A DNA stretch of 36,201 nucleotides from Flavobacteriales bacterium. Lineage in GTDB: Bacteria > Bacteroidota > Bacteroidia > Flavobacteriales_D > Parvicellaceae. The notes under the pieces are model-generated. The model did not search any database, was not told the DNA's origin, and saw only the letters and a list, made by a program, of their open reading frames with translations. Each line of letters begins with the position of its first letter. Position 1 is the stretch's first letter. A program made the translations under genes and the position numbers. Below, in pieces: positions 487 to 32,752 of this stretch. The stretch covers positions 1 to 36,201 of the forward strand of contig JALWSJ010000422.1 in NCBI GenBank assembly GCA_026993705.1. Reading direction: 5' to 3'.

Positions 487-634
487 GCGTTAGGGATAGA
501 ACGGCGTGTTTGAACTCCTTTTGGTTTGTTGCATATATGCAAACCAAAAGAGTGAGTAGTGATAGCCCGACCCTAAACACAAAAAGTACGTACCCAGTGA
601 GGGTATGTGCTTTTTGTGTTTAGGGAAACGCCCG
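487..634 (+). repeat. Structured repeat A, copy E1 (subtype I)
   Basis: GCGTTAGGGATAGAACGGCGTGTTTGAACTCCTTTT-GGTTTGTTGCATATATGCAAACC-AAAAGAGTGAGTAGTGATAGCCCGACC-CTAAACACAAAAAG...CTTTTTGTGTTTAG-GGAAACGCCC. Confidence 0.9.
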
Positions 635-9189: not shown

Positions 9190-9342
9190 GGGCGTTTCCA
9201 TTACAGCATAAAAAAGTGGTGTAGTTCTCACTACACCACTTTTTAACGCTGTAATGGTCGGGCTATCACTACTCACTCTTTTGGTTTGCATATATGCAAC
9301 AAACCAAAAGGAGTTCAAACATACCGTTCTATCCCTAACGCG
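9190..9342 (-). repeat. Structured repeat A, copy E2 (subtype I)
   Basis: Reverse complement reads GCGTTAGGGATAGAACGGTATGTTTGAACTCCTTTT-GGTTTGTTGCATATATGCAAACC-AAAAGAGTGAGTAGTGATAGCCCGACC-ATTACAGCGTTAAAAAGTGGTGTAGT...-GGAAACGCCC. Confidence 0.9.
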
Positions 9343-12532: not shown

Positions 12533-12694
12533 ATCCCTAACACGAGTGAAATAGACGGTATAAAGCGTTTTTTTCATTCCTTATCCTTCTTCAAAAAATA
12601 TTTCTATAGCGGGTGCTATGCAAAGATTTTTTTCATCGTCTAAGAAACCAAAAATTCACTTTCTCTCCGCCAATTTCACTCGCACTAGGGATAG
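12533..12694 (+). repeat. Module C (spacer module 5' of repeat A), copy C1
   Basis: ATCCCTAACACGAGTG...CACTCGCACTAGGGAT inverted ends; internal TTTTTTTCATCGTCTAAGAAACCAAAAATTCACTTTCT shared with the 20.8 kb and 32.3 kb copies. Confidence 0.75.
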
Positions 12695-12829
12695 AACGGC
12701 GTGTTTGAACTCCTTTTTCTCTCTCGCTGTTCGAGAGAAAAAGAGTGAGTAGTGATAGCCCGACCCCATTTTATGAAAACAATGTTTCGCGTTAGCGATA
12801 TGTTGTTTTCATAAAATGGGGGAGTGCCC
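12684..12829 (+). repeat. Structured repeat A, copy E3 (subtype I, variant closing stem GCACT/AGTGC)
   Basis: GCACTAGGGATAGAACGGCGTGTTTGAACTCCTTTT-TCTCTCTCGCTGTTCGAGAGAA-AAAGAGTGAGTAGTGATAGCCCGACC-CCATTTTATGAAAACA...TTGTTTTCATAAAATGG-GGGAGTGCCC. Confidence 0.9.
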
Positions 12830-19227: not shown

Positions 19228-20409
19228 TTACGCAAAAATAACTCCACTACCCAGCAACTCATCCCCGTCATACCACGCTACAAATTGCCCTGAAGCAATG
19301 CCTCTTTGAGGTTCATCAAATAACACGTATAACCCATTACTCTCTTGCATCAAAGTAAGAGGCGTTAGTTCCTGCCGATAACGGATACGTCCCATATATT
19401 TTCGTTTTTCTCCCACTTCCATTTTTAAATCATCCCTAACCCAATGTACATCTTTACTCTGTACCAGAAGTCCCTTTCTATAAAGTCCTTTATGCTCTGT
19501 TCCTTGTCCAACATACACAATATTATCGATAGTATCTGTTCCAATGACAAAAAGAGGTTCTTTTGTTCCTCCTACTCCTAACCCTTTTCGTTGCCCTTCG
19601 GTAAAATAATGAGCTCCTTGATGTTTCCCCACTTCTTTTTTGCTTTTTGCTAAATGTAAAGGATACGGGTTTACCAATGTTTTCATATCGTTATTCTCAT
19701 AAGAGAAAATTGCATCATCATCTGCGATTTCAATGATACTTCCTTTTTTAGGCTTTAACTTTTGCTGTAAAAAAACCGGTAGTTTAACCTTTCCAATAAA
19801 GCAAAGTCCTTGTGAATCTTTTTTATCTGCTGTATTCAAGCCAATTTCACGAGCAATTTCCCTTACCTTACTTTTTTGCAAATGACCAATAGGAAATAAT
19901 GCTTTACTCAACTGCTGCTGGCTCAACTGACACAAAAAATAACTTTGGTCTTTGTTGTTATCCGCTCCGGCAATAAGACGATACATCTCTTTCCCGTCTT
20001 TTTCCATCACTTCTTTCTGGCAATAGTGCCCCGTCGCCACAAAATCAGCCCCCAATTCCAATGCTTTGTCTAAAAAAATATCAAACTTTACTTCTCGGTT
20101 ACACAACACATCAGGATTAGGCGTTCTACCTCTTTGGTATTCTGCAAACATATAATCGACTATTCGTTCCTTATACTCCTCGCTAAAATCAATAACCTGA
20201 AAAGGAATACCTAAGCTCTCTGCGACCTGCAAAGCATCATTACTATCATCAATCCAAGGACAATCATCGCTAATAATTACGGAATCATCGTGCCAATTTC
20301 GCATAAAAATACCTACCACATCATATCCTTGCTCTTTTAATAAATAAGCACTTACACTCGAATCAACTCCCCCAGAAAGTCCTACTACAACTCGTCCTTT
20401 GTTCTCCAT
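19228..20409 (-). CDS. mnmA: tRNA-specific 2-thiouridylase MnmA
   Basis: [35 protein letters not shown]...; [14 protein letters not shown]; start at 20409 preferred. Confidence 0.96.
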
Positions 20410-20490
20410 TTGATAACTTCTATAAAATTTAACCACAAAAATACGCAAATCTAAAACAAATACTTCCGAATGATAAAAAAGATAATAATT

Positions 20491-20630
20491 TGGGCGTTCC
20501 CCTTTTCTGCTAAAGACACATATCGCTATGCGAAACGTGTCTTCAGCAGAAAAGGGTCGGGCTATCCACTATATCTTTTGCCCTCCAAAAGGAGGGAGGG
20601 CAAAAGGATGCCGTTCCTATCCCTAACGCG
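20491..20630 (-). repeat. Structured repeat A, copy E4 (subtype II)
   Basis: Reverse complement reads GCGTTAGGGATAGGAACGGCATCCTTTT-GCCCTCC...GGAGGGC-AAAAGATATAGTGGATAGCCCGACC-CTTTTCTGCTGAAGACAC...GTGTCTTTAGCAGAAAAG-GGGAACGCCC. Confidence 0.9.
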
Positions 20631-20668
20631 GGTCAGGTAAGTGTAAATTTTATTGTGCTAAGATGTTC

Positions 20669-20796
20669 CGTGTTAGGGATTCCAACTAACGTAAAAATAC
20701 AATATTGAAAATCAATGGATTATGAAATTACCTAAATTTTTATGTTAGCTCAAAAACTCAACTGTTTTTCGCAGTCGCTTAATGATCCCTAACGCG
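20669..20796 (+). repeat. Module B, copy B1 (~128 bp, inverted GTGTTAGGGAT/ATCCCTAACGC ends)
   Basis: Shares TTCCAACTAACGTAAAAATA...CTCAACTGTTTTT...CAGTCGCTTAAT.ATCCCTAACGC with the copy at 32393. Confidence 0.85.
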
Positions 20797-20891
20797 AAGA
20801 AAATGAGCGAGAAGAAAACGGAGTTTATTTTTCATCGTCTAAAGAAACTAAAACTCATGTTCTTAGCACTCATTTCACATGCGTTAGGGAT
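20785..20891 (+). repeat. Module C, copy C2
   Basis: ATCCCTAACGCGAAGAAAATGAGCG...TTTTTCATCGTCTAAAGAAACTAAAACTCAT...ACTCATTTCACATGCGTTAGGGAT. Confidence 0.75.
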
Positions 20892-21013
20892 AGAAGTGGC
20901 ATCCTTTTGGGTTGTTGCGTATATGCAACCCAAAAGATATAACGGATAGCCTGACCTTTCGCGAGTAAAATAAACGGTAAAACCTTTATTTTATTCGCGA
21001 AAGGGAACGCCCA
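20881..21013 (+). repeat. Structured repeat A, copy E5 (subtype II)
   Basis: GCGTTAGGGATAGAAGTGGCATCCTTTT-GGGTTGTTGCGTATATGCAACCC-AAAAGATATAACGGATAGCCTGACC-TTTCGCGAGTAAAATAAA...TTTATTTTATTCGCGAAA-GGGAACGCCC. Confidence 0.9.
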
Positions 21014-21028
21014 AAACAATCTAAAAAA

Positions 21029-21349
21029 CTACACAAAAACAATATCAAGCACTACCGTTCTGCCTAAGTCTTCGTTTATCATATCTATGATTTTAGACCT
21101 CCCCATACTTAACTCCTCGCGAATAATAGAGGAAGTTAACTTGACATACATTCGCTTGTTTTTCAGATGGATTTTTTCGGTGTATTTAACGATAGGTGCT
21201 CCCATTAGTTTTTTGAACGAATTGATGGCTTCGTATTCGTCAAAATTTTTGGTCAAACCGTAGGCTTTTAGCAATTTGGTTACCACCTCATCAATGCTTT
21301 CTTCGTTTGATGTTCGCTTATATCGCGGGTTAAATTTCTTCATTTTCAA
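21029..21349 (-). CDS. DUF721 / DciA-like protein
   Basis: Small protein with KMKKFNPRYKRTSNEESIDEVVTKLLKAYGL...LMGAPIVKYTEKIHLKNKRMYVKLTSSIIREELSMGRSKIIDMINEDLG, typical of DUF721. Confidence 0.75.
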   Translation of the reverse strand: MKMKKFNPRYKRTSNEESIDEVVTKLLKAYGLTKNFDEYEAINSFKKLMGAPIVKYTEKIHLKNKRMYVKLTSSIIREELSMGRSKIIDMINEDLGRTVVLDIVFV

Positions 21350-25772: not shown

Positions 25773-25917
25773 GCGTTAGGGAAAGAAGTGGCATCCTTTT
25801 GTGTTGTTGCATATATGCAACACAAAAGATATAACGGATAGCCCGACCATTACGGCGTTAAAAAGTGGTGTAGTAGTAACGGAACTGCTTTTTTATGCTG
25901 TAATGGGAACGCCCAAA
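25773..25917 (+). repeat. Structured repeat A, copy E6 (subtype II)
   Basis: GCGTTAGGGAAAGAAGTGGCATCCTTTT-GTGTTGTTGCATATATGCAACAC-AAAAGATATAACGGATAGCCCGACC-ATTACGGCGTTAAAAAG...TTTTTTATGCTGTAAT-GGGAACGCCC. Confidence 0.9.
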
Positions 25918-32115: not shown

Positions 32116-32255
32116 GGGCGTTCCCATTACAGCATAAAAAAGCAGTTTCGCTACACAACACTACTTTTTAACGCTGTAATGGTCGGGCTATCCGCTATAT
32201 CTTTTGCCCTCCAAAAGGAGGGAGGGCAAAAGGATGCCGCTTCTATCCCTAACGC
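32116..32255 (-). repeat. Structured repeat A, copy E7 (subtype II)
   Basis: Reverse complement reads GCGTTAGGGATAGAAGCGGCATCCTTTT-GCCCTCC...GGAGGGC-AAAAGATATAGCGGATAGCCCGACC-ATTACAGCGTTAAAAAG...CTTTTTTATGCTGTAAT-GGGAACGCCC. Confidence 0.9.
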
Positions 32256-32403
32256 GAGTGGAATGAGGATTAAGAAAGTGAGTTTTAGTTTCTTGAGACG
32301 ATGAAAAATTCTTTTGCATAGCCCCAGCTATGGAAAATAATTTTGAAGAAGTATAAAGGAAGTAAAAACGTTTTATGGTTCTCATTATGCTCGCGTTAGG
32401 GAT
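32245..32403 (-). repeat. Module C, copy C3
   Basis: ATCCCTAACGCGAGTGGAATGAG...GTGAGTTTTAGTTTCTTGAGACGATGAAAAATTCTTTTGCATAG...GCTCGCGTTAGGGAT. Confidence 0.75.
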
Positions 32404-32521
32404 GCTTCCAACTAACGTAAAAATATCGTGCTGAATATCAAATAGTTATAAAATTGTTGTTTTTTACGTTAGCAACAAAACTCAACTGTTTTTTACACAG
32501 TCGCTTAATAATCCCTAACGC
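32393..32521 (+). repeat. Module B, copy B2 (~129 bp, inverted GCGTTAGGGAT/ATCCCTAACGC ends)
   Basis: GCGTTAGGGATGCTTCCAACTAACGTAAAAATAT...TTTTTTACGTTAGC...CAACTGTTTTTTACACAGTCGCTTAATAATCCCTAACGC. Confidence 0.85.
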
Positions 32522-32522
32522 C

Positions 32523-32619
32523 AGATTGTCTAAAAACCTAATTTACAGTAAGATTTATATCTGATTATCCATGTGTTATAATTCTTGTTTTCAAGTTTCT
32601 TAGGGTTTTTAGACAGTCT
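32523..32619. repeat. MITE-like inverted-repeat element (~97 bp)
   Basis: AGATTGTCTAAAAACCTAA ... TTAGGGTTTTTAGACAGTCT imperfect inverted ends. Confidence 0.6.
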
Positions 32620-32752
32620 GACGCAAGTGGAATGAGTGCATAGAAAGCGAATTTTAGTTTTCTTAAACAATGAAAAATTCTTTTGAGTATTCTTATACCA
32701 TTTAAACATAAAAACGTAATTTTATTATTTTCGTAAAAACTTTTAATCAACG

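Follow-up and report, generated by a model that had tools for sequence, protein, structure and literature searches.

In the 36,201-nucleotide stretch of Flavobacteriales DNA analyzed here (the window; its genome is denoted G000), mnmA and dciA (DUF721) are neighbors (20449 to 21028), and no ORF of at least 80 amino acids is present between the two positions. The genes are not adjacent in congeners: the assembly of G004, the closest relative found (91% identical), lacks both mnmA and dciA, and in other congeners the two genes have different neighbors, with no spacer comparable to the one here. Thus, the island described below sits at a gene-order break.

A first-pass annotation had described the spacer as A(−), a 38-bp gap, B, C, and A(+), joined at copies of an 11-mer, GCGTTAGGGAT/ATCCCTAACGC, with GGGCGTT and AACGCCC at the outer ends. 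Direct reading of the sequence bore out the order, the joints, and the outer ends, and the limits were right to 1 to 2 bases (Table 1). The left A runs from GGGCGTT to ATCCCTAACGC on the plus strand, its Flavo-1 strand being the minus strand, and the left end of B, GTGTTAGGGAT, is the 11-mer with one change. The short module C on the right was resolved with a hidden Markov model (HMM) into a plus-strand part (20786 to 20834) and a minus-strand part (20826 to 20890). The gap, GGGTCAGGTAAGTGTAAA/TTTTATTGTGCTAAGATGTTCC, represents both ends of a full 157-bp C (e.g., L044:13167-13323) with the middle deleted, and its match to both termini led us to reject the idea of a mere spacer. In the 2.97-Mb draft genome, 418 exact copies of the 11-mer were counted versus 0 for a reversed-letter control, and the modules of the island gave 124 matches genome-wide, indicating that the island is not a chance arrangement.

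Table 1 Repeat modules, joints, and inserted elements (positions without a locus prefix are those of the window)
Feature	Position	Strand	Remarks
Module A, left copy; full Flavo-1 element with P1 GCGTT/AACGC, P3 (Flavo-1 stem), and variable hairpin P2	20492-20629	-	
RF01705 Flavo-1 match, left A	20551-20638	-	60.6 bits (gathering 42)
Module C remnant, middle deleted (the 38-bp gap)	20630-20669	+	Compared with L044:13167-13323
Module B, 126 bp, hairpin closed by GTGTTAGGGAT...ATCCCTAACGC	20670-20795	+	Orientation canonical for left A
Short hybrid module C, composed of two A-proximal arms in head-to-head fusion	20786-20890	.	Hairpin 20785-20891
Module A, right copy; full Flavo-1 element	20881-21012	+	Outer end 16 bp from dciA (DUF721) stop codon
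RF01705 Flavo-1 match, right A	20861-20960	+	57.6 bits (gathering 42)
11-mer joint, exact (ATCCCTAACGC on plus strand)	20619-20629	-	
11-mer joint, exact, common to B and C	20785-20795	-	
11-mer joint, exact, common to C and A(+)	20881-20891	+	
Solo module A	487-633	+	Two C modules at same site in G004, none in G000
Solo module A	9190-9341	-	
Module C joined to following A	12534-12691	-	
Module A, altered P1 that still pairs (GCACT...AGTGC)	12682-12829	+	Sequence reading
Solo module A	25773-25914	+	C modules at same site in G004
Array A-C-B-D-C remnant	32116-32685	-	G004: A-C-C remnant, B and D absent
Element D, 99 bp, inserted at ATCCCTAACGC, 4-bp duplication ACGC	32522-32620	.	
Element D, other G000 copies	L050:7012-7110, L212:8816-8914, L222:8107-8205, L227:814-912, L234:1503-1601, L237:4810-4908, L241:6743-6841		
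Free-form C copies	L171:2664-2822, L207:3024-3182, L231:6784-6942		

Module A is a complete Flavo-1 element

A 2010 report described Flavo-1, from Bacteroidetes, as a likely RNA of unexplained role and rated it not cis-regulatory (PMC2864571). Both focal A copies passed the gathering threshold of the Rfam RF01705 covariance model (60.6 and 57.6 bits versus 42), in agreement with it in strand and stem; the other 10 of the 12 Rfam matches at E values up to 1 in the region 20300 to 21200, including mir and MIR families, fell below gathering and were dismissed as chance. The Rfam model covers only about half of A, namely, P3 with single-stranded flanks, whereas the module here adds P1 and P2, and about 10 Flavo-1 copies in other genomes of this order have both as well. 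The whole of A folds as a three-way junction that consists of P1 (GCGTT/AACGC), P3 (the Flavo-1 stem, from GGG.TA/TA.CCC), and the long hairpin P2, with z scores of about −7 to −10 for the two focal copies. At the start of the 5′ strand of A is the 11-mer GCGTTAGGGAT, a segment that contributes one side to both P1 and the Flavo-1 stem.

Covariation was assessed in 48 A copies, in which 98.6% of cells were paired and 24 of the 46 pairs had changed on both sides, giving a covariation score of 0.419 versus 0.129 for shuffled sequences and at most 0.10 when the sequences were slid. P1 is nearly invariant within this set. Across 13 diverse copies, most of them from other genera, it pairs at 5 of 5 positions in every copy with seven different helices (e.g., GGCTT/AAGCC, GCGTG/CACGC, CGGTT/AACCG, and GCATT/AATGC). 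The resulting 35 of 35 pairs, versus a shuffle mean of 17.9, were equalled in 21 of 100,000 shuffles, a figure that serves only as a guide since the P1 strings were chosen by eye beside conserved anchors. These data indicated that the complete form of A is a three-way junction with strong covariation, across genera too.

About 40% of the A copies (L044 to L063 and L162 to L241) have one P2 family (CATTACRGCATAAA), and the remaining copies have nearly unique P2 outer stems whose arms always match; these stems diversify fast. A second Flavo-1 architecture, TAGCCCTGAT...AGCAGGAAATAGCTCC without P2, was observed in other genera (L242, L243, L244, and L257), and the Rfam family seems to mix the two forms. 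The Flavo-1 cutoff was exceeded in 63 of 299 sampled genomes of the order, with copy numbers ranging from one up to the scoring cap; this patchy spread fits bursts of amplification. The literature searched contained no description of the array habit with B, C, and D, which is also absent from the Rfam model; searches on the 11-mer and the module ends returned chance oligonucleotides only, and those aimed at previous accounts of similar repeats in Flavobacterium yielded no usable result.

Array grammar and position relative to genes

HMMs for A, B, and C were run on 618 kb of G000 and 370 kb of G004, in contigs chosen for holding copies, and 133 and 86 arrays were found, respectively. Module A occurs solo or at one end of an array, C and B lie on its inner side, and the orientation is fixed in nearly all arrays, the common forms being A, C-A, C-C-A, B-C-A, and C-B-C-A. 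Scaled by 11-mers, G000 contains about 390 A copies. The focal island is one among several hundred Flavo-1 repeat arrays in this genome. The draft contigs of these metagenome-assembled genomes often break inside arrays (G004 ends L163, L164, L165, and others), which probably explains their 459 to 720 contigs.

When simple ORFs of at least 100 codons were taken as genes, the outer end of A facing a gene 3′ end was placed at a median of 8 bp from the stop codon, and 70 of 83 such ends fell within 17 bp. The stop codon TAG uses the first G of A in 12 cases. The inner ends of A are less tightly placed, and array-free spacers next to gene 3′ ends have a median gap of 47 bp. Such adjacency to stop codons is not the rule in 11 copies from other genomes.

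A fixed regulatory region serving mnmA and dciA would accord with the structured, RNA-like nature of A and with the 16-bp distance between its outer end and the dciA stop codon. We nevertheless regard this explanation as highly unlikely: the two genes are not adjacent in congeners where both neighborhoods were seen, the same modules adjoin hundreds of unrelated genes, and in Flavobacterium psychrophilum the Flavo-1 matches lie sense or antisense to transcribed regions, with many outside them (PMC9723704).

Comparison with a close relative

Anchoring on both sides in G000 and G004 was possible for 11 A-bearing loci, whose flanks are mostly 85 to 95% identical. All 13 A copies at these loci are present in both species, none having been gained or lost, and the C/B contents differ at 10 of the 11 loci; one compared pair, L217/L192, also involves a larger rearrangement. 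Module B is cleanly absent at the G004 orthologue of window positions 32403 to 32642, and L049 and L194 differ by a 262-bp B+C segment lying between two GCGTTAGGGA copies, the flanks otherwise matching. With 11-mers at both ends, such indels of B+C and of array C may have arisen by deletion or by insertion. Module A is often swapped for another A subtype at the same site, and this replacement in place suggests gene conversion. A 173-bp segment of G000 (L045:7461-7634) has no counterpart at the G004 locus (L184); a short repeat marks the joint, and a related copy lies at C275:414-597 in G004. The segment is probably another hairpin MITE family.

These data bear on the first-pass reading of the island as a composite mobile element, in which A(−) and A(+) would be end modules that mobilize B and C together. 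The modular, dispersed, and partly mobile character that it implied stood up: the modules are scattered through the genome, B, C, and D are gained and lost at the 11-mer joints, and B, with 37 matches in 618 kb of G000 versus 1 in 370 kb of G004, is abundant in the former and nearly absent from the latter, hence almost specific to G000. The layout is symmetric as well. The assignment of A as end module failed, however, since most arrays have a single A and only 4 of 133 contain a pair of A copies whose outer ends face outward. Identity between the focal copies of A is 70%, a value typical of random A pairs (mean, 76%), rather than the near-identity of terminal copies, and no target duplication was found just outside 20492 and 21012, the flanks sharing only TTT/AAA that belongs to A. 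No ORF of at least 80 amino acids, and hence no encoded transposase or cargo gene, lies inside. Moreover, no two A...A islands share ends, and two others occupy the same places in both species with different contents: L048, with the order of the focal island, has the orthologue L172 arranged as A-C-C-A, and L227/L173 is the second such pair. Taking the A-A identity, the missing flanking duplication, and the lack of a gene within together, we rejected the composite transposon as very unlikely.

Inserted elements B, C, and D

Element D is 99 bp long in all eight G000 copies, with one diverged 89-bp copy in G004. All nine copies share one insertion point within the 11-mer, immediately following ATCCCTAACGY or the complement of this sequence, and eight of them are accompanied by a 4-bp duplication, ACGY/GCGT (in one of these with a one-base difference). 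As 9 of 9 D copies are at a single point, the 11-mer constitutes their landing site. The G000 copies, including the one in the window, are palindromic, with ends CAGACTGTCTAAAAACC, and always follow ATCCCTAACGC with the duplication ACGC, strictly site-specific for the array joint. Thus, D combines the terminal inverted repeats, constant size, and target duplication of a MITE. A free form of C, ending in TACCATTT...AAATGGTA, is distinct from the array form with its 11-mer ends. One copy has inserted in P2 of an A copy at L207 with a 3-bp duplication, and a solo copy in L171, for which a 3-bp duplication is probable, has an empty site in L219; terminal inverted repeats, target duplication, and empty site are again features of a MITE. 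Module B has inverted ends that coincide with the 11-mer joint, where a target duplication would be indistinguishable. The terminal sequences are TACCATTTNAA for C, CAGACTGTCTAAAAACC for D, and GYGTTAGGGATTCCAAC for B. B, C, and D appear to behave as MITE-like inserts. In a search for the parent transposase of C and D, no ORF was found between matching ends in the sampled contigs (roughly 1 Mb, about a third of the genome). As short hairpins with terminal inverted repeats and, for D and free C, target duplications of 4 and 3 bp, these inserts resemble MITEs such as the Correia elements, and they differ in that no parent insertion sequence was found here and that D is strictly specific for the 11-mer.

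An integron attC site has the core RYYYAAC...GTTRRRY, and the resemblance of GTTAGGG/CCCTAAC to core sites, together with an imperfect hairpin of variable tip and the gain and loss of units, would be compatible with 11-mer pairs acting as attC-like recombination sites in a cassette array. Yet GTTAGGG lacks the final pyrimidine of GTTRRRY, such that CCCTAAC...GTTAGGG fails the core test, the modules are devoid of ORFs, and A is a three-way junction and not one hairpin. The probability of this explanation is close to negligible.

Strand bias in modules A and C

Among 91 distinct stems of the variable P2, to which the counts for A are restricted, the Flavo-1 strand would form 46 G-U pairs versus 8 A-C mismatches (binomial P of about 1e-7, computed on sequences that are related). 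Of 161 A copies, 159 fold better on this strand. For module C, 207 G-U pairs versus 46 A-C mismatches were counted, and the strand running away from A, i.e., the opposite strand, folds better in 96 of 98 copies. The G-U bias most likely marks A and C as RNA hairpins, on opposite strands, that have been under selection or at least transcribed. Part of the excess could be inherited from a few ancestral copies or reflect mutation bias in transcribed DNA.

The bias also weighs on the possibility of A being a REP-like element that a Y1 (RAYT/IS200-like) transposase mobilizes in single-stranded DNA form. Module A is a hairpin element with a conserved foot, hundreds of copies, and one polar end, and in Bacteroidetes the RAYT subclass 2.6 provides a precedent, being flanked by atypical structures that have further genomic copies (PMC6006769). 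More generally, REP/BIME systems share with the present one many short structured extragenic repeats and arrays of palindromic units; here there is no GTAG foot, and the module is much larger. On the other hand, the G-U bias exceeds what single-stranded DNA would require, and neither G000 nor G004, both full of A, yielded a match to the Y1 transposase family PF01797 in their incomplete assemblies; the Y1 genes of G001, G003, and G005 do not have Flavo-1 sequence motifs nearby. Movement of A in this manner is thus unlikely.

DISCUSSION

The gap is a C remnant, the right C is a head-to-head module, and B has the canonical orientation for the left A only, which points to an A-C-B array and an opposed C-A array fused within C. 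We consider it likely, therefore, that the island represents two polar Flavo-1 arrays pointing away from each other, joined through their C modules and each anchored by its own A.

In the scheme that we propose, A, a complete Flavo-1 folding as a three-way junction on one strand, serves as the array anchor. Hairpin elements are added on its inner side at the 11-mer: the 157-bp C, the 126-bp B, which lies in the loop separating C units, and the 99-bp D. They are presumably moved by transposases acting in trans. Arrays may shrink through recombination between directly repeated 11-mers, A copies may exchange sequence via gene conversion, and A itself would have spread at an earlier time.

In organization, the arrays are reminiscent of the pneumococcal BOX, RUP, and SPRITE repeats (PMC3049150), which are likewise small intergenic composites with a fixed module order, a strain-variable number of inner modules, families that insert into one another, and low present mobility. 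The likeness is one of organization alone, and no sequence relation is expected. They differ from the repeats described here, which have one 11-mer joint common to all modules, a three-way junction in A, and a strand bias of A and C on opposite strands. A more speculative proposal, to which we assign a low probability, is that full-length Flavo-1 and C form a divergent pair of structured RNAs with complementary 11-nt 5′ ends that would act, at several hundred loci, on the 3′ ends of genes abutting A, the 11-mer being both an RNA helix strand and a landing site for hairpins.

For Flavo-1, catalogued since 2010 without a known role, these results provide a complete boundary and a three-way junction supported by covariation, and they place the family in a repeat system numbering about 390 copies per genome, in which the parts that stay can now be told apart from those that move. 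The Rfam Flavo-1 model could be extended on this basis. The function of Flavo-1 becomes testable now that the full element, its likely strand, and natural variants that have or lack B, C, and D are defined.
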